Origin: Gardnerella piotii
GTDB lineage: Bacteria > Actinomycetota > Actinomycetes > Actinomycetales > Bifidobacteriaceae
Assembly (NCBI RefSeq): GCF_003397585.1
Contig: NZ_QJUV01000001.1
Coordinates: forward strand, 558,001 to 622,000
Reading direction: 5' to 3'
Length of the DNA: 64,000 nucleotides
Part shown: positions 5,886 through 23,918 of the stretch, in pieces
Layout: every line of letters starts with the position of its first letter
Position numbering within the stretch: position 1 is the stretch's first letter
Position numbers and translations under genes: made by a program
Notes under the pieces: generated by a model
Seen by the model: the letters and a program-made list of their open reading frames with translations, nothing else
What the model was told of the DNA's origin: nothing
The model's database searches: none

Positions 5886-5897
5886 TAGGTGGGTGCA
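5851..5897 (+). repeat. Att-like block, copy 1 (native gene end)
   Basis: This 47-bp block carries the last codons of the methyltransferase gene (HVETVVLMSRA), its stop and the following ataggtgggtgca. It is the reference for five further copies at 8659, 12434, 16516, 24882 and 33501. A length near 50 bp suits a serine-recombinase attachment site. Confidence 0.85.
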
Positions 5898-6293
5898 TTT
5901 TTGCCCTTATGTAGCAAGGTTTAGCGAGGGCTATCGTTAAAAGGTTTAATGCGAAGTGGCTTTAAGCTGTGTTCTCGTGATTTTTGAGCGTGATTTTGCT
6001 GTATGAGGGAACATGTCAACGCTCTGGGGTCGAGTGCACAGGATGTTAACGTACTTCGCTTGCGTTGAAAGCACACTGTGCTTTCAACTTTGAGCAAGCT
6101 CAGCGAATCGAAGTGCATTCGCGAATTATGTTATTCCTCACGGCTATTAGTAGCCGTTCGGCTGATTTGGCATGTAAAGTCCACTGGACTTTACATTTGA
6201 GCCAAATCACGCTTTGAAGGAGCTTGAAATGCGTTATGCAATTTCAAGCTCTGTCAAAGCGCCCATTCAAGTCGATTCGCCACTTTGCACCCA
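5889..6293. repeat. Long palindromic element R, copy 1 (405 bp)
   Basis: The element starts with GTGGGTGCA and ends with TGCACCCA in inverted orientation. It contains the motif gctatcgttaaaaggtttaa (about 5930-5949) and a perfect hairpin at 6064-6088 with 11-base arms gttgaaagcac/gtgctttcaac. Compared with the 283-bp copies at 12472 and 16553 it has about 120 extra bases (roughly 6131-6250). These hold more hairpins: taaagtcca/tggacttta at 6176-6194 and one with arms gcttgaaat/atttcaagc at about 6221-6249. No gene is seen in it. Confidence 0.8.
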
Positions 6294-6307
6294 GCTGGTG
6301 AAGTGGT

Positions 6308-6347
6308 AAAATATAGCTCAAAAGTTAAAATGAGGCCTGATTATTAG
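6308..6347 (+). pseudogene. Last codons of a deleted serine recombinase
   Basis: Bases 6308-6347 match the end of the intact recombinase gene (about 13757-13799), including the final codons for KMKPDY-like residues and the stop. They also share the same downstream ribosome binding site region. Everything else of the recombinase gene has been removed in this module. Confidence 0.7.
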
Positions 6348-6374
6348 TATGTGTACGAGGAGGTGTTTAAGGAA

Positions 6375-6554
6375 ATGGACAAGCTCGTTCGTTTTTGCCG
6401 TGAAGTAGTGACATTCGGCTTGACGGTTGCCTTAATCGCGATGCTGGTTGCCTTAATATGGGGTGGCACACTTGCTATTAGAATTGGTTTTACCTCTTTT
6501 GTTATTGGTGTCACAGTGATCTTGCTTAAGACTGTCCTTCGAAAGACTGATTGA
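6375..6554 (+). CDS. Small membrane protein, two helices
   Basis: A 59-residue protein with two hydrophobic helices (about residues 13-33 and 36-53) and a charged C-terminus (RKTD). The ATG at 6375 follows an aggagg site (6358-6363) with 11 bases between; an in-frame GTG at 6351 lies before the site and is rejected. It sits directly behind the recombinase remnant, in the slot where the module at 12472 carries a DUF4097-like gene. I do not recognise a family. A strong terminator follows. Confidence 0.6.
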   Translation: MDKLVRFCREVVTFGLTVALIAMLVALIWGGTLAIRIGFTSFVIGVTVILLKTVLRKTD

Positions 6555-6596
6555 ATTTTGTTTGGTTCAAGTCAATAGTTGAATATCTCACGTTGT

Positions 6597-6638
6597 GTGA
6601 CTATTACTGATTTCTGTCAGTAATAGTCACTTCTTTTT
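6597..6638 (+). terminator. Terminator after small membrane protein
   Basis: Perfect 14-base arms GTGACTATTACTGA and TCAGTAATAGTCAC with a 6-base loop, followed by ttcttttt. Confidence 0.85.
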
Positions 6639-6710
6639 ATGAATCTTAAAGTCAGGCTCAATGTCCGTCCTGTTTAGCCGGTGATTAGTTAGGGTAATCG
6701 TTAAAAGGTT

Positions 6711-7018
6711 AACAACTGTATCAATGAAAATGCACGGAAATTGCAGGATCAGGATGAGTATGCGAAAAAATATGCGAGTCTAGTGAACAGGTTTAATACT
6801 GGAGAATCAAGCCTTAAAGAAGTCAAATCTATCATTGTTGACAAGCAAGCAAGACATGATGAGGTTGAATATTTTACCGAGGATTTGAAAAACAGGACTT
6901 GTTAACAGCGTTCGATGAAAACGTCTGGCTGAGCATGGTTGACTATCTAACCGTGCATCAAGATGGAAAGGTTGAGTTTACTTTCCTTGATGGGAGCAAG
7001 ACAGAACTAAAGCGTTAA
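6711..7018 (+). pseudogene. Large serine recombinase, C-terminal remnant with frameshift
   Basis: Frame 6711 reads NENARKLQDQDEYAKKYASL and continues to a stop at about 6903. A shifted frame then continues with LLTAFDENVWLSMVDYLTVH and ends FLDGSKTELKR at 7018. Together these match the coiled-coil tail and terminal beta segment of large serine integrases (pattern FDENLW...VD..TV..DG...F.F..G.E). The catalytic domain is gone. The remnant is preceded by a copy of the atcgttaaaaggtt motif (6697-6710), so the deletion joins the island end motif to the recombinase tail. Confidence 0.75.
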
Positions 7019-7049
7019 TCTTACAGGAAATGTGGCAAGGCAAAATAAA

Positions 7050-7080
7050 AGCACATCAGCAAGTGCTGACGTGCTTTTTC
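7050..7080 (+). terminator. Terminator after recombinase remnant
   Basis: Stem agcacatcagca / tgctgacgtgct with one mismatch, then a T5 run. Confidence 0.8.
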
Positions 7081-7143
7081 TGTTAAAAGAGTTACATGTT
7101 GAGTATAATAGGATTAGTTGAGTATCGATGGAGAGAATTTCCT

Positions 7144-8034
7144 ATGAGTAATAGTAAAACTTTTAACCTATTTTTAATGGACGGCGAGGTCACAGGGCGT
7201 ATTAAATGCACGCTTCCTAGTTGGAGTGGTTTAGCTTATAAAGTTCCTAGAACTTATCTAGATAAATGTAAGGATAGAAAGCAACTCAAGCAGTGTGGCG
7301 TTTATTTTTTGTTTGGCAAGAATGACAATGACGAAGATGAAGTATACATCGGGCAAGCTGGCATCAGAAAAAACGGTGAAGGTGTTCTTTTTAGAGTTAA
7401 TGAACACCTAAAAGACGATTTTTACTTTAGTGAAGCGGTTATGTTTACGACGAGTGACAATTCGTGGGGGCCAACGGAAATAAGCTATCTAGAAAACAAA
7501 TTCACTAACCTTGCTATTGATACTGATCGTTATAAAGTAAGAAATGGAAATGATCCTAACCCTGGCAATGTGACGGAAGAAAAAGAAGCGGAGTTAGAGG
7601 TTTACGTTGATCAGTTTAAGATGATGCTTGGTGTTTTAGGCTATAAGATTTTTGTACCTTTAGTAAAAACGCAAGTATCTGTAGTTGAAGAGCAAGACGA
7701 TAATGAACTGTTATTAAGTCTTTCTCGAAAGATTAAGCGATCGCATAAAACCATAGAAGCACATTGCAAACGAACGAACGAGGGTTTTGTGGTATTGATG
7801 GGAAGCCAGATTGAAGAAACAGATTCTGATGCTATCCCAGATACCATCAAAGAGCTAAGACAGCGGTGCAAACAAAATAACGAAATTAAAGACGGCGTGC
7901 TCACCAAGAATTATTTGTTTAAGAGCCCGTCTTATGCCGCTTCATTTGTTTTAGGAATGACAACAAACGGTAAGACCGACTGGAAAATGGAGGATGGCAA
8001 ATCGCTTAAAGATTTAGAAGAAATGGAAATCTAA
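7144..8034 (+). CDS. GIY-YIG nuclease family protein with DUF4357 tail
   Basis: A 296-residue protein. A GIY-YIG-like core lies at about residues 45-110 (GVYFLFG...EVYIGQAG, then RVNEHL and a late ENKF asparagine). The C-terminal part has the DUF4357 pattern (SPSYAASFVLGMTTNGKTDWKM). Proteins with this layout are common next to mobile DNA and restriction systems; their substrate is not known. The ATG at 7144 is chosen because ggaga stands 9 bases upstream; the longer form starting at 7096 lacks a site. It is cargo of the first island module, flanked by recombinase remnants on both sides. Confidence 0.75.
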   Translation: MSNSKTFNLFLMDGEVTGRIKCTLPSWSGLAYKVPRTYLDKCKDRKQLKQCGVYFLFGKNDNDEDEVYIGQAGIRKNGEGVLFRVNEHLKDDFYFSEAVMFTTSDNSWGPTEISYLENKFTNLAIDTDRYKVRNGNDPNPGNVTEEKEAELEVYVDQFKMMLGVLGYKIFVPLVKTQVSVVEEQDDNELLLSLSRKIKRSHKTIEAHCKRTNEGFVVLMGSQIEETDSDAIPDTIKELRQRCKQNNEIKDGVLTKNYLFKSPSYAASFVLGMTTNGKTDWKMEDGKSLKDLEEMEI

Positions 8035-8057
8035 AAGCGTTATGTGTAAATAATTAA

Positions 8058-8081
8058 GGCGGTAGTAATACCGTCTTTTTT
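8058..8081 (+). terminator. Terminator after GIY-YIG/DUF4357 gene
   Basis: Arms GGCGGTA and TACCGTC followed by T6. Confidence 0.8.
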
Positions 8082-8191
8082 GATGCCTAAAAAGGTTTCA
8101 GAGTTTTAAGCTATTCAGGATTCCTATAATCCAGAGTTTAAGTGCAAGGTTTCAGATTTCAAGGCTAAGGTTTCATTGTATTCAATACGTT

Positions 8192-8455
8192 ATGAAACTA
8201 TATACGAAAACTGCCAACGAGATTGATGAGCTTAAAGGTAAGAAACAGCAGATTCTTATAGAAAAATCAGGTCAAGAAGATGCTAAAAGACGAATCAGAG
8301 AAATGGAAGATTTTCTGAAAAGTGAGCGTCACGATATTAGTGAGTATGACGAGAAGCTGGTAAGAAAGTACATCAAGAAAATAAAAGTTTACGAGGACAA
8401 GTTCAGCATAACTTTTAAATCAGAGATTAGTGTGGATATTGAAAGGGCATCGTAA
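8192..8455 (+). pseudogene. Serine recombinase tail fragment
   Basis: The 87-residue frame is an all-helical charged stretch followed by EYDEKLVRKYIKKIKVYEDK and FSITFKSEISVDI. This is the standard ending of large serine recombinases (E[YF]DE.L...I..I.VY.D.F.I.FKSG.EI.V). There is no catalytic domain and no convincing start signal, so it is read as the 3' part of a lost integrase. Its last codons and terminator recur at 22105-22210. Confidence 0.75.
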
Positions 8456-8495
8456 AAGCCGAAAGAATGTGAGCATTTGAAATGTTACAAAAGTC

Positions 8496-8526
8496 AGCCT
8501 AGGGGAATCATCTCTAGGCTGTTTTT
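8496..8526 (+). terminator. Terminator of recombinase tail
   Basis: Arms agcctag (8496-8502) and ctaggct (8514-8520), then gttttt. The same hairpin occurs at 22178. Confidence 0.8.
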
Positions 8527-8556
8527 ATGCTCAAAAACCAAGTTATCAAGCCAATC

Positions 8557-8603
8557 TTAAACTTTTTAACGATAGCTTTTTCTATCGTTAAAAAGTGCAC
8601 CCA
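8557..8603. repeat. Module right end, copy 1
   Basis: ttaaactttttaacgatagc followed by a short hairpin (gatagctttttctatc) and gTGCACCCA. Read in reverse it starts with TGGGTGCA and contains the same inner motif as the left ends, so modules have inverted ends. Confidence 0.75.
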
Positions 8604-8658
8604 GTATCCATTCCGTGCACTCAAAAAAGTGTAGCTATACTACCTGTTCTCTCAATCC

Positions 8659-8705
8659 ACGTGGAGAGTGTTGTGTTGATGTCTAGGGCTTAATAGGTGG
8701 GTGCA
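8659..8705 (+). repeat. Att-like block, copy 2
   Basis: In the methyltransferase frame it reads HVESVVLMSRA and stop: one amino acid change and several synonymous changes relative to copy 1, then ataggtgggtgca. Confidence 0.85.
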
Positions 8706-8708
8706 TTT

Positions 8709-9119
8709 TTAGGCTTTATGCTTTTGATTTCTTCTTCGTAAAAACTCTTTAACAATGATTGGAATTATAGTTGGAATACATTCAGTGGTTAAGAAATACG
8801 TAATGTATAAGTAAATCCAGCTACTACCCAATTGTTGAGGAGACTCTTGTAATATCAATAAATCAATGGCTGGTGCGATAAGCGCTATGGCAATGGTTTT
8901 ACAAACTCCTAAGTTTTCGAGTGTTTTTTGATTGACAACGATTGAGTAAAGGACAAGCGTTGTTAAACCAAATACGTGAGCTATACCGATCAATAAAACA
9001 GGTGAGTCATAAACAATTTCTGGATTAAACAATCTAAGTGAGTTAAGGATTAGTCCTAAAAGAGGCAATAATAATGAAAAAAGAAATAATCGTATAGCTT
9101 GATACACAGATTTCTTCAT
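8709..9119 (-). CDS. Four-helix membrane protein (duplicated at 24932)
   Basis: A 136-residue hydrophobic protein with about four membrane segments (residues roughly 8-28, 42-60, 73-92, 98-120) and a basic tail (RRRNQKHKA). The start follows gaggagg-type ribosome binding bases (9121-9129 on the minus strand). It points towards the att-like block, whose tip it almost touches. A paralogue with the same beginning, middle (KTLENLGVCKTIAIALIAPA) and end is at 24932-25342. I do not recognise the family; phage- or element-encoded is likely from position. Confidence 0.6.
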   Translation of the reverse strand: MKKSVYQAIRLFLFSLLLPLLGLILNSLRLFNPEIVYDSPVLLIGIAHVFGLTTLVLYSIVVNQKTLENLGVCKTIAIALIAPAIDLLILQESPQQLGSSWIYLYITYFLTTECIPTIIPIIVKEFLRRRNQKHKA

Positions 9120-9199
9120 TACAACCTCCTCAAATTTATATAGCCAAGCAGATGACTACTGTCGTAGACGGACTATTTTCACTCATTTTACGTTAATTT

Positions 9200-9410
9200 A
9201 TCTTACTTGGAAAGTTGGGATAATCATATCCGATTAAAATCTGGCGGTCATTGGCAGACAGGGTTTAAGGAGCTTGGGTAAATACGGCATTGAGTATCAT
9301 ATCGTGAAAACATATCCCAATGAGGTGAGGGTTGGATATGTGCCGAATTATAAGGCACCGAAAAAGAAGAATGGTGTTAATCAAGCGTGGTTTTCGGCTA
9401 GCTGGTAAGC
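9200..9410 (+). pseudogene. Fragment resembling the end of a secreted nuclease toxin
   Basis: The frame reads SGGHWQTGFKELG, then a stop/frameshift, and continues YPNEVRVGYVPNYKAPKKK and QAWFSASW. The second copy at 25440-25630 is open throughout. The pattern (V)RVGxVPNxKxxxKxxGxxQxWF resembles the end of EndoU-like polymorphic toxin domains, but I cannot confirm this. There is no start or secretion domain, so it is a displaced fragment. Confidence 0.35.
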
Positions 9411-9610
9411 AAGGGCATGGTCTTTTTGTTACAACGTCTAGGTTTTCGCAGAAAGCTAAGGATTATGCTGACAATCATCATATTATTTTGGTTGATGGTG
9501 TGAAACTTGCAAATCTTATGATTAAACATAATTTTTGTGTTTCAACAAGAAAAACGTTTGAGATTAAAACGATTGATACTGATGCTTTGCTTGAATATCA
9601 AGATGAATAG
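9402..9610 (+). pseudogene. C-terminal fragment of an Mrr-like restriction protein
   Basis: The frame reads GKQGHGLFVTTSRFSQKAKDY, then IILVDGVKLANLMIKHN and ends EIKTIDTDALLEYQDE. This matches the end of Mrr-type methyl-directed restriction proteins (GVF.TTS.FS..A..YA...IVLIDG..L..LM). The nuclease core upstream is missing and is replaced by the toxin-like fragment, overlapping by a few bases. The same fusion occurs at 25622-25831. Confidence 0.55.
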
Positions 9611-9839
9611 TGTTTTTGTGTAAGTTTTGTGACTTGATTTTGTTGATTTTGAGTTTGTTACTGAGTTTTTTTAGATTTTAGATATGAATTTGCTATTTTA
9701 TCAGTTATAAATTATAAATTATCGATTTTGCCATTAAATTTCACTTATAAGCGATGTGTGCGGTGAAAAGTCTTGGTTTGTTTTTTGTTTTACTTTTGGC
9801 TTTGGTTGTGGATATTGGTTAATCGTACATTTTTTACGA

Positions 9840-10118
9840 TTACAGGTTGAAGAGGTCTGCGTGGCTACCAGTATCGATAAGTGTGAGGGTGAGAATATCA
9901 TCCTCTAGCAGATAAACAAGTAACCAGTCTGGCTTGATGTGGCATTCGTGAAAACCGTTGAATTTTCCTTTGAGTATATGGTCTTTGTATTTAGGGTCAA
10001 GTGGAATACATTGTCTTAGATTATCTACTACTTCATCCAAAAGAGAAAGATTGATTCCTTGTTTAGCCATACGCTTATAGCTTTTCTTATAAGCATTCGT
10101 GAACTTAACGTTGTACAT
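9840..10118 (-). CDS. yafQ: YafQ-type mRNA-cleaving toxin
   Basis: A 92-residue RelE-superfamily toxin of the YafQ branch: start MYNVKFTNAYKKSYKRMAKQG, the core DPKYKDHILKGKFNGFHECHI, then DWLLVYLL and the ending LIDTGSHADLF with the catalytic-type histidine. YafQ cuts mRNA on the ribosome and stops growth when its antitoxin is lost. The ATG overlaps the antitoxin stop by one base (TGATG), the usual coupling. It lies in island module two. Confidence 0.88.
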   Translation of the reverse strand: MYNVKFTNAYKKSYKRMAKQGINLSLLDEVVDNLRQCIPLDPKYKDHILKGKFNGFHECHIKPDWLLVYLLEDDILTLTLIDTGSHADLFNL

Positions 10119-10393
10119 CAGTCTTGCAACAGCGCTTTCTTAAGGTCTTCCATAGAAGAATACGATGGTACGTTAGGGTCTCTGGAAATTCTTTTGGCTT
10201 CTTGCATAGCAGCCAGTGTTTCAGTATTAAACTTTGGGATTTCTACTTTAAAAGGAAGGCCGCCGTGTAAAACGCATTGGCGTAAGAAGATGTTTACGGC
10301 ACTTGACATATCGATGCCGAGTTCGCTAAACAGTTCATTTGCTTCTGTTTTTACATTACTATCGATACGAATTTGAGTAGGACTTGTTGCCAT
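10118..10393 (-). CDS. dinJ: DinJ/RelB-type antitoxin
   Basis: A 91-residue antitoxin with an N-terminal ribbon-helix-helix (IRIDSNVKTEANELFSELGI...MSSAVNIFLRQCV) and a C-terminal part that would wrap the toxin. It normally represses its own promoter together with the toxin. The start is preceded by aaggagc on the minus strand. The promoter and a partly palindromic operator can be seen just upstream. Confidence 0.87.
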   Translation of the reverse strand: MATSPTQIRIDSNVKTEANELFSELGIDMSSAVNIFLRQCVLHGGLPFKVEIPKFNTETLAAMQEAKRISRDPNVPSYSSMEDLKKALLQD

Positions 10394-10416
10394 AGTATTA
10401 GCTCCTTTTTAAGACG

Positions 10417-10445
10417 ATTATGATACAATCAGTATACGTTGTCAA
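10417..10445 (-). promoter_or_regulatory. Promoter/operator of the dinJ-yafQ pair
   Basis: On the minus strand TTGACA (10445-10440) and CATAAT (10422-10417) are 17 bases apart. The spacer gtatactgattgtat has partial dyad symmetry, a fair candidate for the DinJ operator. Between this and the gene at 10714 nothing else is seen. Confidence 0.65.
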
Positions 10446-10713
10446 GCAATAAAGATGGAATAGTAATATTTTGCACTCAATGATTAGTGTTAATGTTAAA
10501 AGAGTAAAAAATTGCAATGGGAAATTACAATTTGAAGTACATCATGCAATTTGTTGATTTTTATGATAAAAACGCTGTTCGACTTTAATATTTCAGAGAA
10601 AAACGGATGTAGAGTTATGCTATATCAACAGATGAAGATGATTGTATTGGATTTTGTTAAGTCGTATTTTAGTTGTATACGAATAATGGGAAACTGCTCA
10701 TTAGGAGAAAACG

Positions 10714-11511
10714 ATGGATAGATTTTCAGAGAAAAGTCTTCTTTCACTTGGAGATTATTATGTGTATGGACTTATCGATCCACGTAGTAAGCGAATCTTC
10801 TATATTGGGAAAGGCGCAGGAAACAGAGTATTTGAACACGAGAAAAAAATCCTGGGTAGTTCTGAAAGTGAGAACCTGAAACTTAAGACAATATCAGAAA
10901 TTAAGGCTGCTGGACTTGAAGTTGAAAAGATTATCATTAATTCAAACCTTACTGAAGAAGAGGCGTTTGCGTCAGAGGCGTCTTTAATCAATGCATTTAA
11001 TTACGTCAGTGACACAGGCCTCACTAATATTGTTGCCGGGCATCATTCTGCAGAGGCATTATCGGTTGATGAATACGAAAGAATAAATGGCGCGGTCGAA
11101 CTTGAAGAAAAAGACATAAAGCACAGAATTCTTGTTATAAAAATAAATAGGCTTTATCGGAGATGCATGGATGAGAATGTATTGTATGATGCTGTTCGTG
11201 GTATCTGGAGAGTATCAAAAGAAAAAGTAAAAACCGTTGAATATGTTTTTGGTGTATACAATTCTTTGATTGTGGCTGTATATAAGCCGTCAAAGTGGTT
11301 TGTTTGCAAAGAGGCAAAGGACAGACTTCCAAGGCAGGATATCATTCTTGAGCCAAAAAAGGCGAATAGATTATTTTTTGTGGATGATAGATATGAACAA
11401 GGATTTACACTTGATGAAAATGAAGCTTTTTATCTAGGGAAATCTATAATCAGATTGAAATTGAATCAGTCGGCGCAGAATCCGATTACATACCTAAATC
11501 CGCAGAAGTGA
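10714..11511 (+). CDS. GIY-YIG domain protein, LEM-3-like
   Basis: A 265-residue protein with a GIY-YIG fold at residues 12-110: YYVYGLIDPRSKRIFYIGKG, then RVFEHE and, further on, the glutamate-bearing EEAFASEASLINAF and the asparagine in LTNIVAG. This resembles the LEM-3-like branch of GIY-YIG nucleases. The C-terminal half has no domain I recognise. A clear site (aggag, 10701-10705) precedes the ATG. It probably cleaves DNA or RNA, but its biological job is unknown. It is cargo between a TA pair and a toxin remnant. Confidence 0.75.
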   Translation: MDRFSEKSLLSLGDYYVYGLIDPRSKRIFYIGKGAGNRVFEHEKKILGSSESENLKLKTISEIKAAGLEVEKIIINSNLTEEEAFASEASLINAFNYVSDTGLTNIVAGHHSAEALSVDEYERINGAVELEEKDIKHRILVIKINRLYRRCMDENVLYDAVRGIWRVSKEKVKTVEYVFGVYNSLIVAVYKPSKWFVCKEAKDRLPRQDIILEPKKANRLFFVDDRYEQGFTLDENEAFYLGKSIIRLKLNQSAQNPITYLNPQK

Positions 11512-11574
11512 GATAAATTATAGTTTATTGTAGGAAATGATTTATTAGAAAATGCGTTTGTTTTGAAGTTGTAC

Positions 11575-11656
11575 TTGAAATTTACGCCCATTATTAGAAC
11601 ACCACGGCTTCCAGCCAACAATTTAATATTGCATGGGCATGGTGTTAGAGGAATGG
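11575..11656 (-). pseudogene. RelE/ParE toxin remnant
   Basis: On the minus strand a short stretch reads NTMPMQY, a stop, then IVGWKPWCSNNGRKF. This mirrors ETMPMRYTLVKWEPWCSKGIRRI of the intact toxin at 33607-33939. Only this core remains and it contains an in-frame stop. Confidence 0.55.
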
Positions 11657-11690
11657 ATATCATGCCTAAAATCAAGCTATCAAGCCAATC

Positions 11691-11730
11691 TTAAACCTTT
11701 TAACGATAGCTTTTTTAATAATCGTTAACA
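11691..11730. repeat. Partial module right end
   Basis: ttaaaccttttaacgatagc followed by ttttttaataatcgttaac; the outer TGCACCCA tip is missing because the TA block follows instead. Confidence 0.65.
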
Positions 11731-11753
11731 TAAATGATAGTTATTGAGAATAG

Positions 11754-12071
11754 TTATTCCAGTAGTGCGTCAATATTTCGTTTTGAATATAGAAGTCGGC
11801 GCACTTCCATAGTGTCGTCGATGACAACGTAAAAAACAGAAAAGTTGCGTACGCTAATCCTGTAGTAGGGGTGTTCTCGTGTTGTTGATGATTGGTAAGG
11901 AGCAAATAAGAGGGGTGATTCAAGTCGTTTATCGATTGCTGATTCTATATCGTCAACAAGTTTGTGAGCAGCTTTTGGATTTTGCAGTGTATTGGTTATA
12001 TAGTCAACTGTTTCTAATAAATCTTCTTTGAATAGTGGGAGAAAGGTTAATTTATACGTGTTCTTGCTCAT
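11754..12071 (-). CDS. RelE/ParE-family toxin, copy 1
   Basis: A 105-residue RelE/ParE-fold toxin: LTFLPLFKEDLLETVDYITNTLQNPKAAHKLVDDIE in the helical hairpin, then HPYYRISVRNFSVFYVVIDD and LLYSKRNIDALL at the end. It may cut mRNA or hit gyrase; the sequence does not decide. It overlaps the antitoxin gene by 20 bases, consistent with translational coupling. The protein is identical to the copy at 22304-22621. Confidence 0.87.
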   Translation of the reverse strand: MSKNTYKLTFLPLFKEDLLETVDYITNTLQNPKAAHKLVDDIESAIDKRLESPLLFAPYQSSTTREHPYYRISVRNFSVFYVVIDDTMEVRRLLYSKRNIDALLE

Positions 12072-12324
12072 TGATCCTTCTCCTTACGCTATCAAAGACA
12101 TCGTCTTTAGAAAGACGCGTAGAAGTGTTTGCGGCAAAAGTATCTGCTTCGTCGAGTTTTCTTTCAATGTCGTCAGTGAGGGCAGAGTATTGTTTGATGC
12201 TCATGAGAACCATAGTTCCATAACCATTTTTTGTAAGGAATACTGGTGTATTTGAATTTATAACTGTTTCTTCTACTTCTGGGAATTTATTTCTTAAGTC
12301 GGAAACTGGGCGAATATTAATCAT
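12052..12324 (-). CDS. Phd/YefM-family antitoxin, copy 1
   Basis: A 90-residue antitoxin starting MINIRPVSDLRNKFPEVEET, the Phd/YefM DNA-binding fold, followed by VFLTKNGYGTMVLMSIKQY and a charged toxin-binding tail. A strong aaggagg site precedes the ATG on the minus strand. It differs from the copy at 22602-22874 by one residue near position 52 (D here, N there). Confidence 0.87.
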   Translation of the reverse strand: MINIRPVSDLRNKFPEVEETVINSNTPVFLTKNGYGTMVLMSIKQYSALTDDIERKLDEADTFAANTSTRLSKDDVFDSVRRRINEQEHV

Positions 12325-12433
12325 AGTATCAACCTCCTTTTATCAAAAAAGTATCATAATATTATCAAGATTACAATTATATTAGTGGCTTGGCACTCAA
12401 AAAGTGTAGCTATACTACCCGTTCTCTCAATCC

Positions 12434-12480
12434 ACGTCGAGACTGTCGTATTGATGTCACGGGCTTAATAGGTGGGTGCA
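12434..12480 (+). repeat. Att-like block, copy 3
   Basis: It encodes exactly HVETVVLMSRA and stop like the native gene end, with two synonymous differences, and continues ataggtgggtgca. Confidence 0.87.
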
Positions 12481-12754
12481 TTGAAGGCTTTGTGTAGCAA
12501 GGCTTAGCGAGGGCTATCGTTAAAAGGTTTAATGCGAAGCAGCTTTAAGCTGTGTTCTCGAGATTTTTGAGTGCGATTTTGCTGTATGAGGGAACATGTC
12601 TACGCTCTGGGGTCGAGTGCACAGGATGTTAACGTACTTCGCTTGCGTTGAAAGCACACTGTGCTTTCAACTTTGAGCAAGCTCAGCGAATCGAAGTGCA
12701 TTCGCAAATTATGTTTTAATCGCTCATGCAAGTCGATTCGCCACTTTGCACCCA
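12472..12754. repeat. Palindromic element R, copy 2 (283 bp)
   Basis: Starts GTGGGTGCA and ends TGCACCCA. Inside are gctatcgttaaaaggtttaa and the 11-base-arm hairpin gttgaaagcac/gtgctttcaac (about 12648-12672). It lies immediately upstream of the intact recombinase gene, where an element attachment site would be expected. It has no coding potential that I can support. Confidence 0.8.
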
Positions 12755-12842
12755 GCTGGTGAAGTGGGAAAATAAGGTTTAGGCTAATTATCATGGAGAA
12801 GAAATCTAAGTTTCGTTAGTCTAATAATAAGGAGAGATGGCT

Positions 12843-13799
12843 ATGGATAAGATAGATGAGCTAAATAAAGATGTGATAGTCATCCATCCTCAGCGTGTAA
12901 TTAAGGATTATGCAGTTGGGGTTTATGCTCGTGTGAGCACAAATCGTAAAGAACAGTTGGATAGTCTTGCTGTTCAGGTGTCTGGTCTTACTCGTCTTGC
13001 TGCTGCTCACATGACTTGGTTTGTTGCAGATATTTTTCTTGATGTTGCTTCAGCTAAGGTTGGATCTTCAAGAAACGAGTTTAATCGAATGATTGAAGAA
13101 TGCGAGAAAGGTAATCTTGATATTATTCTTACTAAAAGTGTGAGCCGTTTTGGTCGTGATACGAAAGAAGGCTTAGAGGCTATTAGAAAGATTCGATCAT
13201 GTGGCACGAGAATTATTTTTGAGACAGATAAAATTGATACGGAAACTGTCGATGATGAACTTTTAATCAGTGTGGTTCAAGCTTGTAGTCAAGCAGAGAA
13301 TGATTGGCGTAGTGAGAATATTGTTTGGGGATTAAGACGTAGAGCAGAAGATGGCACATCAGGTCTTTATAGCAGAGTTTGTTATGGTTATAAAAAAGAT
13401 AAACATGGAATGCTTATTATTGATGAAGACCAAGCGCAAGTGGTAAGAGATATTTTTGACTGGTATTTAAAAGGATTAAGTATCGGCGGTATTATTAAAA
13501 GGTTAAAAAGTAAAGGTGTTAAGTCTCCAAAGGGAAAAGACGTTTGGAGTAAACGGGCTGTTGAGAGCACTTTGACTAGGCGTAAATATACAGGCGATGT
13601 GGCGATTGCTGTTCCGGGAAATGCGGATTGTCAGTATTTGAATACAGATCATCATGCAGGCATTATTTCTAAAGAGAAGTTTGAAGCGGTTGAGCTTGAG
13701 ATGGCGGCTCGGAGTAATTTGGAAGTTGGAGAGGACGGAACGGTCAAACGCAAGTCTAAGAAATATAGCTCAAAAGGTAAAATGAAACCTGATTATTAG
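12843..13799 (+). CDS. Serine site-specific recombinase (resolvase plus recombinase domain)
   Basis: A 318-residue protein. An N-terminal resolvase domain (residues about 24-165) has the catalytic serine in VYARVST (Ser32), SVSRFGRDT and the helix EGLEAIRKI. A recombinase domain follows (about 190-285: GLYSRVCYGYKKD, IFDWYLKGLSIGGIIKRL, WSKRAVESTL.RRKYTGDV). It lacks the zinc ribbon and long coiled coil of full-size integrases, so it is short for the class. The ATG at 12843 sits 8 bases from aaggag; the ATG at 12837 is too close. It is the only intact recombinase in the island and the best candidate for its mobility. Confidence 0.87.
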   Translation: MDKIDELNKDVIVIHPQRVIKDYAVGVYARVSTNRKEQLDSLAVQVSGLTRLAAAHMTWFVADIFLDVASAKVGSSRNEFNRMIEECEKGNLDIILTKSVSRFGRDTKEGLEAIRKIRSCGTRIIFETDKIDTETVDDELLISVVQACSQAENDWRSENIVWGLRRRAEDGTSGLYSRVCYGYKKDKHGMLIIDEDQAQVVRDIFDWYLKGLSIGGIIKRLKSKGVKSPKGKDVWSKRAVESTLTRRKYTGDVAIAVPGNADCQYLNTDHHAGIISKEKFEAVELEMAARSNLEVGEDGTVKRKSKKYSSKGKMKPDY

Positions 13800-13825
13800 T
13801 ATGTGCACTAGGAGGTGCTTAAGGA

Positions 13826-14419
13826 ATGGATAATAAGAAGTTTATCGCAGAGACGAAAGATGTTCGTTTAACGGTGAAACGTGCTGATACCTTTGGCGTG
13901 AGCTTTGTTAACTGTGAACAAGATATATTGAGGGTTGAGGAAGCGCAAAATGTTATAAGGCTTATTCAAACTAAAAAAGTCTCAGCTTCGAATTGGTTGA
14001 GGTGGTTTACTCAGGGTATGCCTGAAATTGTTGTGAGTTTGCCACATGATGTGGAAGTTTGTGAGGTTGAATCTGATTCTAATCAAGTGCTCATCACGGA
14101 TATTGAGATTGGTAAGCTTTATGTAGAAGTGAACAATGGCAAGGTAGAAGTTGTTAATTTGAAGGCGGATGATGTCTTTCTTAAATGTTATAATGGGTTG
14201 GCTTCAGCAACAAACGTAGAAGTAACTCATGTTTGTACGCTTGATACGTTAAATGGCATGAGTATTTTAGAAGGAACAATCACCAAGGATGCAAGCCTTG
14301 AAGTAGATTGTGAGAATGGTGTCACCGAGGTTTCAGATAAGAAGAAGGTAAATTGTAAAAACGATGGATTTGCGCATTACATGGTGCACTGTCTTAATGG
14401 GAAAGCTATTGCGAAGTAG
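13826..14419 (+). CDS. DUF4097-like beta-repeat protein
   Basis: A 197-residue protein made of repeating short beta strands (VCEVESDSNQVLITDIEIGKLYVEVNNGKVEVVNLKAD and similar), the pattern of the DUF4097/putative adhesin family of right-handed beta structures. There is no signal peptide, so it probably stays inside the cell. The aggagg site at 13810-13815 is 10 bases from the ATG. It follows the recombinase after 26 bases and may be co-transcribed. A fragment similar to its NGVTEVSDKKKVN region appears at 35241-35290. Confidence 0.65.
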   Translation: MDNKKFIAETKDVRLTVKRADTFGVSFVNCEQDILRVEEAQNVIRLIQTKKVSASNWLRWFTQGMPEIVVSLPHDVEVCEVESDSNQVLITDIEIGKLYVEVNNGKVEVVNLKADDVFLKCYNGLASATNVEVTHVCTLDTLNGMSILEGTITKDASLEVDCENGVTEVSDKKKVNCKNDGFAHYMVHCLNGKAIAK

Positions 14420-14510
14420 CAGACATATAGATCAAAAAAGAAGCAATAAAACTTGATATAAGTTGGAATTAGAGCGTATATAGACATACCGATAAAGGAG
14501 GAAGCTGTAT

Positions 14511-14795
14511 ATGCTCTATGTAAAATTTGATGATTTCGAAGATGTTAGCGTCATGGGAAATGAGAAAGATCATGGAATGTTTATTCCGATTAAGGATGGG
14601 AATGTGTATGCTGAGTGCGAACGGTGCGGTGTGGTTGAAAGGATTACCTCACCATGCGAATTCATTGCTAGCACATTTAGGTCAAGAGTGAACTTTAATG
14701 AAGGTTATGAACTTTGCGAGAAGTGCTTGCAAGAGGTTGAGTTTGTTACTGTCGCTTTGAGAACTGGAAAATTGCCTAATCGAGAATTGAAATGA
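14511..14795 (+). CDS. Small protein with two CxxC knuckles
   Basis: A 94-residue protein with cysteine pairs in ECERCGVVE (about residue 38) and LCEKCLQE (about residue 72), likely binding one zinc. The start has an ideal aaaggagg site. I do not recognise the family. It follows the DUF4097-like gene and lies before the ABC-F gene, within the recombinase module. Confidence 0.6.
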   Translation: MLYVKFDDFEDVSVMGNEKDHGMFIPIKDGNVYAECERCGVVERITSPCEFIASTFRSRVNFNEGYELCEKCLQEVEFVTVALRTGKLPNRELK

Positions 14796-14858
14796 CTGAA
14801 AAGCAAAGCAGTGATAACCGTAGTAATACATGAAAAACTAAACGTTAAAAGGTGCACA

Positions 14859-14882
14859 CACTTTGCACCCGGGCGGTAAATG
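14859..14882. repeat. Degenerate module tip before the ABC-F gene
   Basis: cactttgcaccc followed by gggcggtaaatgataa resembles the end of element R (cactttgcacccagctggtgaagtgg). The preceding cgttaaaaggtgcac carries part of the inner motif. It marks the left border of the AT-rich ABC-F cargo. Confidence 0.5.
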
Positions 14883-14902
14883 ATAATTTAGGGAGGCGTT
14901 TT

Positions 14903-16381
14903 ATGTCAGTAATTAAAATTGAAAACCTCACTTTCTCATATTATGGATATGTAAAACCCATATTTAAAAATGTATCGTTTTCCTTTGATACAAACTGGAA
15001 AACGGGATTGATAGGAAGAAATGGAATCGGTAAATCAACTCTATTTAAGTTACTTTTAAATCAAGAAACTTATCAAGGTAAAATAAGCAAGGATGTTGAA
15101 TTTATTAAATTTCCACCAAATATAAGCGATACTTCAAAATTAGGAATTGAGTTATATAAAGAACTAATATCAGATGATGAAGAATGGAAGTTATTTAGAG
15201 AACTCAGTTTGCTAAATGTAGATGAGAACCTTGTTTACAGAGAGTTTGAAACGCTTTCTAAAGGGGAACAAACAAAAATCCTTTTAGCTATTTTGTTTAC
15301 AAGAGAAGATGGCTTTTTACTTATTGATGAACCAACAAACCATTTAGATATGGACGGAAGAAAAATTGTAAGTGAATATCTGAAAAGTAAAAAAGGATTT
15401 TTGCTTATATCTCATGATAGAGATTTTTTAGATGGTTGTATCAATCATGTTATTTCTATTAACAGGAATTCTATTGATGTCCAATCGGGAAATTTTACAT
15501 CATGGTATGAAAACAAAGTGATGAAAGACCAATTTGAAATTAGTCAAAATGAGAGATTAAGAAAAGATATTAAACGATTAAAAGAGTCTGCAAGACAAAG
15601 TCAAATTTGGTCTGATAAAATTGAAAATACTAAAAATGGTGTAAAAGTATCAGGTGTAAAACCAGACAAAGGACATATAGGTCATCAATCAGCCAAGATG
15701 ATGAAAAAATCTAAGAATTTGGAGAATAGACAAAACAAGGCAATAGAAGAAAAACAGAGTTTACTAAAAGATATCGAAATAAAGGAAAGCCTATTACTGC
15801 ATCCGCTACATCATCATAAAAATCCTCTAATATCGGTTAGCAATTTATCATCATGCTATGGAGAGAGACAGATCCTAAATAATGTAAGTTTCGAGATAAA
15901 GCAAGGCGACATAGTGGCTATATATGGGGGTAATGGTAGCGGAAAATCAACCTTGATTAAAATTTTATTAGGTATAAATCACGAGTATACAGGTGAGATA
16001 AAATTAGCAGGTAATTTAAAAATCTCGTATATTCCTCAAGACACATCTAATTTAACAGGTAGCCTAAATGAATATATTCACAAGCAAGATGTTGATGAAA
16101 CATTGTGTAAAACAATTCTAAGAAAATTAGATTTTTCAAGAGAATTATTTGAAATGGATATGAAGAATTATAGTGATGGACAAAAAAAGAAAGTTTTAAT
16201 TGCTGTAAGTTTCTCAAAACCAGCTCATATATTTGTTTGGGACGAACCACTGAATTATATAGATGTAATATCAAGAATACAGATTGAGGAAATTATAAAA
16301 GAAGCAAAGCCTACACTCATATTTGTGGAACACGATAAGCGATTTGTAGAAGATATCGCTAATAAAATAATACAATTTTAA
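14903..16381 (+). CDS. ABC-F ribosomal protection protein, Lsa-like
   Basis: A 492-residue protein with two ATPase domains and no membrane segments. Domain 1 has Walker A GRNGIGKS, signature LSKGEQ and Walker B LLIDEPTNHLD; domain 2 has GGNGSGKS, a changed signature YSDGQKKK and VWDEPLNYID. The linker between them is charged and helical (KRLKESARQSQIWSDKIEN). Length and layout match the Lsa branch, which moves lincosamides, streptogramin A and pleuromutilins off the ribosome. The gene is visibly more AT-rich than the core genes and looks acquired from Firmicutes. gggagg precedes the ATG by 6 bases. No leader-peptide attenuator is seen. Confidence 0.85.
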   Translation: MSVIKIENLTFSYYGYVKPIFKNVSFSFDTNWKTGLIGRNGIGKSTLFKLLLNQETYQGKISKDVEFIKFPPNISDTSKLGIELYKELISDDEEWKLFRELSLLNVDENLVYREFETLSKGEQTKILLAILFTREDGFLLIDEPTNHLDMDGRKIVSEYLKSKKGFLLISHDRDFLDGCINHVISINRNSIDVQSGNFTSWYENKVMKDQFEISQNERLRKDIKRLKESARQSQIWSDKIENTKNGVKVSGVKPDKGHIGHQSAKMMKKSKNLENRQNKAIEEKQSLLKDIEIKESLLLHPLHHHKNPLISVSNLSSCYGERQILNNVSFEIKQGDIVAIYGGNGSGKSTLIKILLGINHEYTGEIKLAGNLKISYIPQDTSNLTGSLNEYIHKQDVDETLCKTILRKLDFSRELFEMDMKNYSDGQKKKVLIAVSFSKPAHIFVWDEPLNYIDVISRIQIEEIIKEAKPTLIFVEHDKRFVEDIANKIIQF

Positions 16382-16394
16382 GTAAGATCCAAAT

Positions 16395-16490
16395 CCCAGT
16401 TTGTAGTGCCTTAGACTTTTATCATCATACGACATTACCCTTGCCAGCTTCTTTACTGCAACGAACGTTAAGGCTCTTTTTTGATGCATG
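16395..16490 (-). pseudogene. Possible transposase end (IS110-like)
   Basis: The minus strand reads MHQKRALTFVAVKKLARVMS and then degenerates. The A(L)xAVxxKLxRV pattern resembles the end of IS110-type transposases. Weak: only about 20 residues support it. Confidence 0.25.
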
Positions 16491-16515
16491 GTTATCATCA
16501 GGGTAGTCTTGAAAC

Positions 16516-16561
16516 ATGTGAGACTGTCGTATTGATGTCAAGGGCTTAATAGGTGGGTGCA
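16516..16561 (+). repeat. Att-like block, copy 4
   Basis: One base shorter than the others (atgtgagactg instead of acgtggagactg), otherwise identical to copy 1 through ttgatgtcaagggc and aggtgggtgca. The deletion breaks the reading frame of this copy. Confidence 0.85.
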
Positions 16562-16835
16562 TTTTTGCCCTTGTGCAGCAAGGCTTAGTGAGGGCTATTG
16601 TTAAAAGGTTTAGCGTGTGGCTGCTTTAGGCTGGCTTGGCGTGATTTTTGAGTGCTATTTTTCTGTATGAGGGAAGATATCAACGCTCTAGGGTCGAGTG
16701 CACAGGATGTTAACGTACTTCGCTTGCGTTGAAAGCACACTGTGCTTTCAACTTTGAGCAAGCTCAGCGAATCGAAGTGCATTCGCGAATTATATTTAAT
16801 CGCTCATGCAAGTCGATTCGCCACTTTGCACCCAC
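16553..16835. repeat. Palindromic element R, copy 3 (283 bp)
   Basis: Starts GTGGGTGCA and ends TGCACCCAC, a perfect 9-base inverted pair. It shares the hairpin (16729-16753) and overall sequence with the copy at 12472, but with more differences in its first third. Confidence 0.8.
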
Positions 16836-16874
16836 CCTGTGAAGTGGGAAAATTTACTCAGAAGGAAATGTACT

Positions 16875-17265
16875 GTATTGTATGGGGGGGGGGAAGAAGA
16901 GTGGTTTGGTAGAAAAGGTGTTTTTAATCATAGTAAAGATAAAATTTGGATTTCTACCACAGAAAAAATTGAGTTTTCAGAGAAACGCTCAACAAATTGG
17001 ATGACATATGTAGATGAACGTCGAATGGAAATAACGTGCGGAGAAGCTCCTTATTTAGTTAGTCGTTATAATGCAACAACTGGCAAAATAATTCCACTTA
17101 AGCAACGTATTGGTCTTTTAGAGCGCAAGATTAGAGTAGTTAAAGAGAATAGTAATAATGAAACAGATTGGCTCAAATGGTCTAAACATGCATTTTTGAA
17201 TCTATTTATGGTTTTTAATATCAAGGAGATAGTCTTCTTCTGTCAATAGAAAACCTTCTTGCAAC
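16875..17265 (+). pseudogene. Broken restriction-modification methylase gene with G10 tract
   Basis: After a run of ten G (16884-16893) the frame reads VFNHSKDKIWISTTEK, TNWMTYVDERRMEITCGEAP and YLVSRYNATTGK, then LKQRIGLLERKIRVV and WLKWSKHAF. A shifted frame continues SIYG, a stop, then YQGDSLLLSIENLLAT. This resembles the region downstream of the catalytic domain in type I/IIG-like restriction methylases. Both ends are missing and there is at least one frameshift. The tract raises the question of earlier phase variation. Confidence 0.55.
16884..16893 (+). repeat. G10 homopolymer
   Basis: Ten consecutive G at the start of the methylase remnant; a C10 tract lies at 17741-17750. Long G/C tracts are rare in this AT-rich sequence. 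Confidence 0.9.
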
Positions 17266-17269
17266 ATAG

Positions 17270-17369
17270 AGCTGGGGTAGTACAGAAGAGTTACGTCAAG
17301 CTATTCATACTTATATTGATTTTTACAACAATCACAGAATTAAAATGGGGCTTAAAAGACAATTATGAA
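17270..17369 (+). pseudogene. IS3-family transposase, C-terminal remnant
   Basis: The frame reads EELRQAIHTYIDFYNNHRIK followed by MGLKR, the end of the IS3/IS150 OrfB integrase domain (YI.FYN..RI...L). A stop cuts it. The N-terminal part of a similar transposase is found at 21565-22041 on the other strand. Confidence 0.65.
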
Positions 17370-17400
17370 ACATCGTACTACGATTGCACAAAATGTCTAA

Positions 17401-17577
17401 AAAATTGTCCTAAGCCCCTTTGGTCCGATAATTGACATTCTTATTGCACCTGTTATATGTGTATTGGTGTTCTTTATTGCAAGAAGTCTTATTCGATATG
17501 CGCATTCTCTTAAGAAAGACGATACGTCATCTAAGCAGTCTGCAGAAGATAAAAGAATAGCGTTACGGGACTTATAA
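17401..17577 (+). pseudogene. Fragment of a small membrane protein
   Basis: An open stretch after a stop reads LSPFGPIIDILIAPVICVLV, FFIARSLIRYAHSLKKDD and ends ALRDL. It has one membrane helix and a charged tail but no start codon. Family not recognised. Confidence 0.35.
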
Positions 17578-17740
17578 AACACAAAAATAACAACGAAACA
17601 GCACTATGTATCACAGATTAACCGCCTACTTACATCTGCTGCGCAAAGCTTCGTCCAAATACTCGATTAAAACGCATCCTTAACATTTCTTGTTGACGCA
17701 ACAAACAAGTAAATCTATCATGTTAGTGGGAGGCACATTG

Positions 17741-17750
17741 CCCCCCCCCC
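17741..17750 (+). repeat. C10 homopolymer upstream of the bacteriocin locus
   Basis: Ten consecutive C, 13 bases before the ggagg site of the bacteriocin signal-peptide remnant at 17774. Length change here could affect expression of the following genes. Confidence 0.9.
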
Positions 17751-17773
17751 AATAAATAAGTTGGAGGTTTACG

Positions 17774-17867
17774 ATGAAGAAAAATTTCACGTATTGCATC
17801 GACAGTAGTACTAGTAGTTTCCATGGCATTGGTGCCATGTGCTACTGCCTATTGGGATTGCAAATAA
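17774..17867 (+). pseudogene. Lactococcin-972-type bacteriocin remnant (signal peptide only)
   Basis: A good site (ggagg, 17763-17767) precedes an ATG. Removing one base from the A5 run at about 17779-17783 gives MKKISRIASTVVLVVSMALV, PCATAYWD-CK and a stop: a typical signal peptide for this small secreted bacteriocin family. The mature domain is absent. As it stands the frame shifts and encodes only a meaningless 30-residue product. The transporter genes follow directly, which supports the identification. Confidence 0.6.
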
Positions 17868-17903
17868 TCTGTATGCATGAATAACTTATTATAGGGGTAT
17901 GCG

Positions 17904-20102
17904 ATGTCTCGATTATTGCGTTCATTGTCATGCGCACTTGTTCTTCTGCTTGCATTATTTGCATCGCTGTTAGGTTTGACAAAAATGAACGACTCCTTGG
18001 GTGATTGTATTGCTATATATCCGCAAACGAGTCGCCTTTTTTCATTACGCGGTGTGACAGAAGACAAAGCTGATCAAATTTATGCATTACTCAAGAATAC
18101 TGTTGCTCAGCATAATGCTTTTGTGGTTCGTAATGATATGCGCTTGGCAGCGAGTGACGCCGGTGTAGATGGTTTTGAGCTTGGCATATTTGGCAATCCT
18201 CGAGGTAAAGATGATTTGCTTACTTTGTCGTATCTCGGAACGCCGATTCTGACATCGCATGCCTTTACGCAATTATTGCACAGCGAAAGTAGCAAAACGC
18301 TCGGACTTGATATGGCAAAAGCAGATATGCTTGCTGATCTTCCCACTATTTCCATTGAGGGTTCGCGTTTAGTTGTTCGTCAATTAGATGCCCTCGTCAA
18401 CAATAGTAAAACAAAGCTTGGCGATTACAGGATTGTGGGACTTTCTAGCCGAGACTACCATGCATTAGTTACTCAAGCTGCTCGCATTGCTGGTACAACC
18501 TACCAAGATTTTCAACGTGGAAAATCTGGAATAGCACGATCCAATAGTTTTAATCAACTTACTTTTATTATTGTCTGCATTGTAACAGTGTTGCTTCTTG
18601 GAATTACGATAATCGCTGATGGGTATCTTTCGTATAGAACATTGGGAAGCTATCTATTGTTGGGTTGGTCGCGTTCATCGTTTGCTTTGCGTCATCTTAT
18701 GCCGATACTTGTTTCAGAGCTCGCCGTATATCCTCTTGTTTGTATCGTGATGAGTTCATTTACTCGCGGATTTATATGGAATATTCAATTGTTAATGCAG
18801 GCGCTGATTATAGCGTTGCCAGTTATTGCAGTTGTGTTGCTTCTCAGCGCATTAGTCATTTTGATGATTATTTCTGTAAAACCAGTAGATGCAATTCGTA
18901 ATCGTATTACCAAACGTGGTATGCTTATTGCTCTTGCACTCGTTTATGCTATTGCATCAACATGCGTATTAGAAGGTGTGCATAGCATAGATGGGCCAAT
19001 AGGCGAGTTGGCGAAAAGTGTGGAAGTTGCTCGTATGTGGCATCCTGTATTAAACCAGAGAATTATGTATCACCACCTCGTAGGGCAAGATGGTGCTTCG
19101 GTATCTGGTCAATCGACGCAGTATGCCAAAGATGCTTTTGCATGGTATCGTTCTATTGAGGATAAGCCAGGAGTAAGGCTTATTTACACAAGCTTCTTTG
19201 ATGCGGATATACTACAAGATTGGCGCAATGGTAGCGTATATAAGCATGTACCTTCTAAGCCATTCTGGTCGTTTGTGGCGTCGCCTAAGTACTTGCAAGA
19301 TCAAGGGTTTACTGTAGATAGCGATGTCAAAAACCTTGCTCGTCAGGGTGTGCGCATTTACTTCATTCCCGACACGTATAATCCTCAAGAGCAGACTTTG
19401 ATGAGGCAGTGGCTTCAAGAGTCAGACAACTTAACGTCTACTGATGTTTCGACCAAGTTTACTGCGCATCCACAATTCGCATTCCGCACGTATCATCCTT
19501 CTCGTGAGTGGTTTAACTGGTCTACGGATATTCATCATAAAGTTATGGTAAAAGATCCTATTATTTTTTATGCGACGAGTGATAATTTGAATGCGTCTGA
19601 AAGTGAATCATTACTTGCTGGCGGTCTTGACAATAGCTACATTAAATTGAATGATCAAGCAGCAGCTAGATATCTGAGCGACGCTTATACTGCACGGTAT
19701 CATCTTGATGATAATCATCTTCAATTCTTACAAGTAGGAGAATGCATTGCAGGCTATCAAAAGACGATTATGCAGACGTTGCAATTGTTTGGTAGTGTAA
19801 TTCTGCTTATTACTCTGCTTATGTTGATATTGCTTATAGCAGTTATTGCTATGTTTGCAGCATGCTATCAAGAAAGTATTGCGGTGAAACGATTGCTTGG
19901 TTTTTCGCTATTACGCATATTCTCTATGCCGTTCTTGCTTGTGGGACTCGTTCAAGGAGTACTTTTTGTTATTGCTTCGATTGAACGGACTCGTTCTGGC
20001 ATGATATATGTGCTGATTTCGGCAATTATTGAACTCATATTATTAACGATACAAACATATTATTTGAGTAATAAACACATTACTTCTATGGTAAAGGAGT
20101 AG
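17904..20102 (+). CDS. Bacteriocin-associated integral membrane protein (DUF1430-type)
   Basis: A 732-residue membrane protein with one N-terminal helix (residues 9-27), a large extracellular domain, a group of four helices (about 215-355), a second outside domain and a final group (about 630-725). This is the layout of the lactococcin 972 transporter/immunity permease, related to MacB/FtsX-type permeases. It should work with the ATPase encoded 6 bases downstream to export or give immunity to the peptide. The ATG follows ggggtatgcg. The bacteriocin gene upstream is broken, so the pair may now act only as immunity. Confidence 0.8.
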   Translation: MSRLLRSLSCALVLLLALFASLLGLTKMNDSLGDCIAIYPQTSRLFSLRGVTEDKADQIYALLKNTVAQHNAFVVRNDMRLAASDAGVDGFELGIFGNPRGKDDLLTLSYLGTPILTSHAFTQLLHSESSKTLGLDMAKADMLADLPTISIEGSRLVVRQLDALVNNSKTKLGDYRIVGLSSRDYHALVTQAARIAGTTYQDFQRGKSGIARSNSFNQLTFIIVCIVTVLLLGITIIADGYLSYRTLGSYLLLGWSRSSFALRHLMPILVSELAVYPLVCIVMSSFTRGFIWNIQLLMQALIIALPVIAVVLLLSALVILMIISVKPVDAIRNRITKRGMLIALALVYAIASTCVLEGVHSIDGPIGELAKSVEVARMWHPVLNQRIMYHHLVGQDGASVSGQSTQYAKDAFAWYRSIEDKPGVRLIYTSFFDADILQDWRNGSVYKHVPSKPFWSFVASPKYLQDQGFTVDSDVKNLARQGVRIYFIPDTYNPQEQTLMRQWLQESDNLTSTDVSTKFTAHPQFAFRTYHPSREWFNWSTDIHHKVMVKDPIIFYATSDNLNASESESLLAGGLDNSYIKLNDQAAARYLSDAYTARYHLDDNHLQFLQVGECIAGYQKTIMQTLQLFGSVILLITLLMLILLIAVIAMFAACYQESIAVKRLLGFSLLRIFSMPFLLVGLVQGVLFVIASIERTRSGMIYVLISAIIELILLTIQTYYLSNKHITSMVKE

Positions 20103-20108
20103 TCGATA

Positions 20109-20780: not shown

Positions 20781-20814
20781 TTGCATTGCTTCTCTTCTCT
20801 TCGTTAAATTTCGG

Positions 20815-20861: not shown

Positions 20862-20863
20862 TT
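20842..20863 (+). repeat. 22-bp direct repeat, left copy
   Basis: gcaaaaactgccacgataac plus tt, identical to 21529-21550. The two copies bracket exactly one toxin-antitoxin pair. Confidence 0.85.
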
Positions 20864-21525: not shown

Positions 21526-21528
21526 ATA

Positions 21529-22984: not shown

Positions 22985-23918
<934 letters not shown>

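Follow-up and report, generated by a model that had tools for sequence, protein, structure and literature searches.

The 283-bp repeat that recurs in the window (the whole 64,000-nucleotide stretch of Gardnerella piotii DNA analysed here) is an attachment-site arm with a Gardnerella hairpin repeat that has landed inside it. We consider it likely that the element represents the left arm of a site-specific integration site interrupted by this foreign hairpin. Core and arm occur together at foreign rumA genes, in the Gardnerella phage vB_Gva_AB1 and in the Streptococcus constellatus phage Javan105, and we therefore read the arm as the left arm of rumA-targeting phages with several serine recombinases, and of stacked cassettes.

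The Repeat Is an Arm with a Hairpin Insert

A repeat search of the window located the 283-nt family at 5850-6132, 12433-12715 and 16514-16796, with identities of 94% and 89%, and a second conserved block after each copy, at 6254, 12715 and 16795. The three copies of the original prediction were confirmed, as were its internal perfect hairpin (GTTGAAAGCACACTGTGCTTTCAAC at 12647-12671), its inverted tips (TGCACCCA on the minus strand at 12473-12480 and on the plus strand at 12747-12754) and its location between an att-like block and the cargo. The tips read GGTGGGTGCA ... TGCACCCA in the window sequence, and the limits of 12472-12754 look inverted because both are copies of a short box, termed Y below. 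The element had also been taken as one unit; the repeat is real, and it proved to be a composite of four differently distributed pieces, namely a core (the rumA 3' end), an arm of 159 bp, a hairpin of 105 bp and a tail of 33 bp. The element was present in 12 of the 112 genomes of the genus set, including the window's own. Among 45 arms classified in Gardnerella-group genomes, 26 lacked the hairpin and carried TAAAA(A/G)GTGCAC instead, and 19 had it at the identical point. As the arm exists without it, the hairpin is best read as an insert, which is 105 bp or longer and replaces one Y box of the arm.

The pieces all run on the plus strand. Copy 1 comprises a core at 5850-5894 (blastn and motif scan; strict core motif from 5856), an arm at 5894-6052 (92% to the arm at 12477), a long hairpin insert at 6053-6279 and a distal arm end, the Y-box tail, at 6280-6312. 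The greater length noted for this copy (that at 5889) was confirmed and comes from three further hairpins nested within its insert. In copy 2, the unit of interest, the core and the right-end flank of the previous unit occupy 12394-12477 (strict core motif from 12439), followed by the conserved 159-bp arm at 12477-12635, a short-form insert at 12636-12740, which contains the perfect palindrome, and the distal arm end at 12741-12773. Copy 3 has a core with a right-end flank of a different type (16520-16558), an arm (16558-16716), an insert (16717-16820) and a distal end (16821-16853).

The hairpins are nested, with the arrangement CTTCGC-[stem]-[near-perfect palindrome]-YTTRA-[stem]-TCAGCG. Within the window's own genome, the stems are swapped as pairs (TTGC/GCAA, CCGC/GCGG, CCAC/GTGG and CAGC/GCTG), and several inner palindromes occur. 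Compensatory changes affect 6 of the 14 consensus pairs, consistent with a conserved inverted repeat. A covariance model with a cut-off of E up to 0.01 gave 53 matches in this genome, dispersed over many intergenic sites; one of them, at 38922-38991 on the plus strand, lies outside any arm (model R1, E = 1.9e-22). Each Gardnerella-group genome gave 17-45 matches, other bifidobacteria at most two, both weak, and a degenerate hairpin pattern found none in viral contigs. The nested hairpins are thus a family of ~50 copies restricted to Gardnerella.

A comparison of species at one orthologous intergenic site showed gain or loss of modules, with one hairpin in one genome and none in another. No clean target duplication was seen there, and within the arms 12 bp are replaced. 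At two further hairpin loci, the orthologous-site comparison was confounded by other repeats. Intergenic regions such as window positions 38300-39700, and those of other Gardnerella, are mosaics of several repeat families beside the nested hairpins, some with dozens of copies per genome. The perfect palindromes may be kept by a mutational mechanism instead of selection. An integron attC reading of the hairpin was ruled out, as 26 of the 45 arms do without it and it sits ~200 bp away from the core.

The suggestion of a MITE-like passenger therefore holds for the hairpin part, with its ~50 genomic copies and its absence from over half of the arms, and fails for the arm. It is very improbable that the entire 283-bp block is a single miniature transposon, as its inverted tips, internal palindrome and several copies might suggest, because the hairpin part alone occupies many unrelated loci, the arm is found almost exclusively beside a core in our genome searches, and the core-proximal Y box is direct, not inverted, in Javan105.

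Core and Arm Are Delivered Together to the End of rumA

The core codes for the last codons of RumA (HVETVVLMSRA and stop), and the arm of ~200 bp lies immediately to its right. In the window, the integration target is a rumA-like (uracil-5-)methyltransferase gene at 4479-5885 on the plus strand, identified by Pfam PF05958 and TRAM and by the core repeat. In most of the Gardnerella-group genomes that were read, rumA is followed by core and arm and then by variable cargo; core-arm-cargo arrays begin at rumA there, and further arrays occur elsewhere. Shared cargo blocks recur in varying order among the arrays. They include an ABC-F block, a CadD-like transporter (PF03596), a TauE-type exporter (PF01925), an Abi_2 protein (PF07751), an exonuclease/BRCT and KilA-N block and, by ORF inspection, several toxin-antitoxin-like pairs. 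Nothing on rumA arrays in Gardnerella was found in the literature searched, and a plasmid search with the 341-bp element gave no match. Some arrays have the arm behind rumA-like endings of another kind, H(A/T)ESVALLYKS..., which suggests at least one more att specificity or an element-borne gene end.

The array of the window has about six or seven junctions, and att-flanked elements are stacked at one site, as in tandem accretion and CIMEs. Besides the three arm-bearing cores, all on the plus strand, a core with a right-end flank and no arm after it lies at 8618-8702 (blastn), a similar armless one at 24841-24925 (boxes at 24786-24826), the right-end flank of a further junction with a degenerate core at 22945-22985, and a weak core copy (82%) at 33501-33544, near the far end of the array. 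Across the units from 5850 to 24841, the ORF listing, cluster comparison and a partial Pfam scan revealed no phage structural or replication genes; these units are relatives of rum-targeting phages and not phages.

Several rearrangements mark the array. In copy 1, a serine recombinase gene has been lost except for its last codons, which now adjoin the tail directly; the gene is that of the 320-aa recombinase discussed below, and the same junction occurs in many 'DUF4097' cassettes of other genomes. The regions concerned are 6309-6374 and 13761-13826; the deletion lies between the tail and the 3' end of the gene and has left a scar. A toxin-antitoxin-like pair is duplicated on the minus strand with 99% identity (11670-12324 and 22220-22874), each copy just before an att-type right end. 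A second long duplication (8544-9644 and 24767-25865, 87-99%) starts at right-end boxes and spans core and cargo. Additionally, a ten-G run (16884-16893) lies within the ORF directly after arm copy 3, and a ten-C run at 17741-17750; both are possible phase-variable tracts.

A 21-bp word of the arm was found in Arcanobacterium, Atopobium and other Coriobacteriia, Anaerococcus, Lachnospiraceae, Tissierellia and Megasphaera, so that the arm is common to two phyla. At eight non-Gardnerella junctions, the core again forms the rumA 3' end, the local rumA product is 25-37% identical to that of the window, and the DNA identity to the window is 33-63% upstream, 82-95% in the core and 82-93% in the arm. 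Hosts with a nearly identical core and arm at the end of a rumA of their own, unrelated to that of the window, include Arcanobacterium, Atopobium, Megasphaera, Lachnospiraceae and Tissierellia. Since the host rumA has diverged and core and arm are nearly identical, both must be element DNA, delivered together. Each junction sits inside the rumA of its host, once on a 1.58-Mb contig, which makes contamination unlikely.

Among the nine non-Gardnerella genomes with arms, only that of Arcanobacterium had a hairpin match, a single copy whose position fits its rumA-arm insert. This arm therefore most likely came from Gardnerella, and the hairpin serves as a marker of transfer direction. The arrays record gene exchange between Gardnerella and vaginal bacteria of another order and another phylum.

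Boxes at Fixed Distances from the Core

Two short boxes recur around the core. The window has 12 copies of the X box, TATCGTTAAAA, where 0.21 would be expected, and 16 of the Y box, the 8-mer TGCACCCA, where the expectation is 1.28. The X positions relative to 39 cores are -100 (inverted), -81 and +76; those of Y are -68, -48, +34 (inverted), +204, +215 and occasionally +226. The right-end boxes are present only where a right end of that type is present. In the window, box scans placed the right-end set at 8561-8603 on the plus strand, with X(-) at 8563-8574, X(+) at 8583-8594 and Y(+) at 8596-8603, corresponding to -100, -81 and -68. In copy 2, the left tip (12473-12480, minus strand) is the Y box at +34, and X lies at 12515-12526 (+76); the X box of arm copy 3 is at 16596-16607. 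The hairpin insert eliminates the Y box at +204 and shifts the outer one to +308, where it forms the right tip (12747-12754). The distal Y boxes appear in one to three tandem copies with 11-bp spacing, the number differing among arms.

Javan105 likewise has X at +76, and Y at +26, +194 and +204. Its core-proximal Y box is direct and that of Gardnerella inverted, and therefore a folded terminal stem is not conserved and the inverted tips do not define an end. That the boxes keep their distance to the crossover, from one genus to the next and in phages, points to an att site at which proteins and DNA form a complex. From sequence, the X and Y boxes appear to be candidate binding sites for one of three serine recombinases or a directionality factor. 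The idea of an accessory recombination site accordingly suits the arm in part, with its boxes at fixed core spacing.

We also considered the element as a regulatory leader, that is, a structured RNA or promoter driving or attenuating the cargo gene that follows. Its orientation is always constant, it often ends just ahead of a start codon, and the full hairpin-bearing copy folds beyond its shuffles (z = -3.31). However, one hairpin-free arm folds only modestly (z = -2.29), and in the consensus fold of the 26 hairpin-free arms, 1 of 50 pairs shows a two-sided compensatory change. An Rfam search of the window returned RNase P alone (bacterial class A RNA, 58547-58918, minus strand) and nothing at the arm. 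Furthermore, some arms precede genes on the opposite strand (c12 TauE), and the box spacing is tied to the core and not to gene starts. A leader is therefore unlikely, and the earlier notion of a structured RNA finds no support in the arm; covariation is almost absent from the arm, and in the hairpin part it affects 6 of 14 pairs.

Recombinases and the Phage Connection

Directly after copy 2, at 12837-13799 on the plus strand, lies the gene for a 320-aa serine recombinase with Resolvase and Recombinase domains and no zinc ribbon (Pfam). The phage vB_Gva_AB1, which was induced, plated and circularised by PCR (PMC7996455), encodes a recombinase of this type (ORF51, 98.7% identical). It also carries rec1-ORF-rec2, with two large serine recombinases, of which rec2 is 96% identical to Gardnerella cluster c9, together with phage structural and replication genes, and has core, arm and tail followed by cargo on the same circle as the recombinases. 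The arm adjoining rec2 is truncated; between rec2 and the 320-aa-type recombinase (3961-4214 of the phage stretch read), the right end, the core and the start of the arm are missing. This gap could reflect loss between repeated X boxes or an effect of assembly. The deposited genome consists of concatenated contigs (PMC7996455). The truncation and the concatenation make the exact attP of vB_Gva_AB1 uncertain. Several Gardnerella viral contigs have the order rec1 - rec2 - right end - core - arm.

Javan105 shows this order in a diverged version: a core-arm, a 72% homologue of the 320-aa recombinase and a second core-arm follow one another, and rec1-small-rec2 lies at the opposite end. Local alignment of the arms gave scores of 112 and 124, where shuffled sequence reached at most 43 and 58. 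No clear arm match was found in the S. suis rum phage, Erysipelothrix phi1605, Terrisporobacter TPDSL_ph1, Javan630 or a Ruminococcus phage. As the S. suis, Erysipelothrix and Terrisporobacter phages have rec1-small-rec2 modules with no significant arm, the arm is not essential for all such modules.

Pfam domains and the gene order of vB_Gva_AB1 and Javan105 reveal two large recombinases at the right end and a third, lacking the zinc ribbon, at the left end. Within the window, only the left-end recombinase gene is whole, and rec2 is a remnant, the C-terminal part of a 525-aa serine recombinase of cluster c9 at 8192-8455 on the plus strand (blastp cluster shared with a full-length copy elsewhere). 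The recombinase of the original prediction (12843) is one of three serine recombinases; this 320-aa product, from 12837, is the left-end recombinase of the system and probably not its main integrase.

Discussion

In the mechanism that we propose, temperate phages and non-autonomous cassettes would integrate at the 3' end of rumA, at the codons for HVE(S/T)VV, each element bringing its own last ~12 rumA codons and a ~200-bp arm just downstream. The excised circle would carry right-end boxes, core and arm in this order (attP), and upon integration the arm would become the first feature past rumA, ahead of the cargo. Repeated integration into the regenerated core would stack the units by tandem accretion, so that each starts with core, arm and cargo. 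Binding of the boxes by rec1, rec2, the 320-aa protein or a directionality factor may wrap the core and control direction, and cassettes that lack recombinases would be mobilised in trans. The hairpin passenger presumably inserted into an arm at the cost of the Y box at +204, moved the outer Y box out to +308 and then spread along with the cassettes; such an insert may affect the function of the arm.

Serine integrases generally need att sites of only ~40-50 bp. Since such a short site suffices, the long arm could serve packaging, transfer origin or promoter. A phage packaging signal or an origin of transfer, by which cassettes are packaged or mobilised in trans, would suit an arm that is conserved in phages and in recombinase-less cassettes and common to two phyla. 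However, boxes also lie across the core at fixed distances, which is a better fit to an att complex, and we regard this alternative as quite improbable.

The reading of the element as an integration-site arm can be extended tentatively. Possibly, several serine recombinases cooperate through the X and Y boxes as lambda-like arm sites, spaced regularly to either side of the crossover; this one site also runs the integron-like cassette array common to vaginal bacteria of two phyla, and a host hairpin repeat can disable or retune an arm. The division of work among two or three serine recombinases is unsettled in the cited literature, and conserved boxes at fixed spacing offer a concrete, testable DNA substrate for this question.

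Among known systems, the closest are streptococcal prophages of the Phi1207.3 and Phi m46.1 type, carriers of mef(A)/msr(D) that target comEC or rum and encode three serine recombinases, the left one lacking a zinc ribbon (PMC4260502). Phi1207.3 has one recombinase at its left end and two at its right, and the target dinucleotide GA (PMC4260502). The target of Phi m46.1 is likewise rum, and phages of this type place cargo beside the left end. Unlike them, the window units are mostly recombinase-less cassettes in which we saw no phage structural genes, and the arm with X and Y boxes turned up in Gardnerella, in human bacteria of other groups (mostly vaginal) and in Javan105-type phages alone, and not in the tested S. 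suis rum phage. The streptococcal rumA ICEs, with a single serine integrase, also use the rumA site and exchange the 3' end of the gene (PMC4701971). The right att of those ICEs is internal to the integrase gene, and the reading frame of the target changes, whereas the window elements restore the ending VVLMS(R/K)A and have att outside rec2.

In streptococci, rum is already known as a hotspot at which tandem accretion occurs (PMC5053989; PMC4701971), and, as in Streptococcus suis rum accretion and CIMEs, several att copies flank stacked elements (PMC5053989). The units differ from that accretion in being small gene cassettes and not whole ICEs, in forming about six or seven junctions in a single array and in crossing phyla. 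Chromosomal integrons resemble the arrays in their small cassettes, many toxin-antitoxin-like genes and one shared site per cassette. In contrast to integrons, the recombinases here are serine and not tyrosine enzymes (the array proteins examined include no IntI tyrosine integrase), the site is double-stranded DNA that copies the end of a gene, and the hairpin lies away from the junction. The hairpin family recalls BOX, REP and MITE repeats in its tens of copies, modularity, intergenic location and strong secondary structure, and differs from them in its swappable inner palindromes and conserved 5-nt bulge. The integration logic is therefore known in kind, from rum-targeting phages with several serine recombinases and from tandem accretion; as far as tested here, the boxed arm of fixed geometry, the Gardnerella cassette arrays and their exchange with other vaginal bacteria are new.
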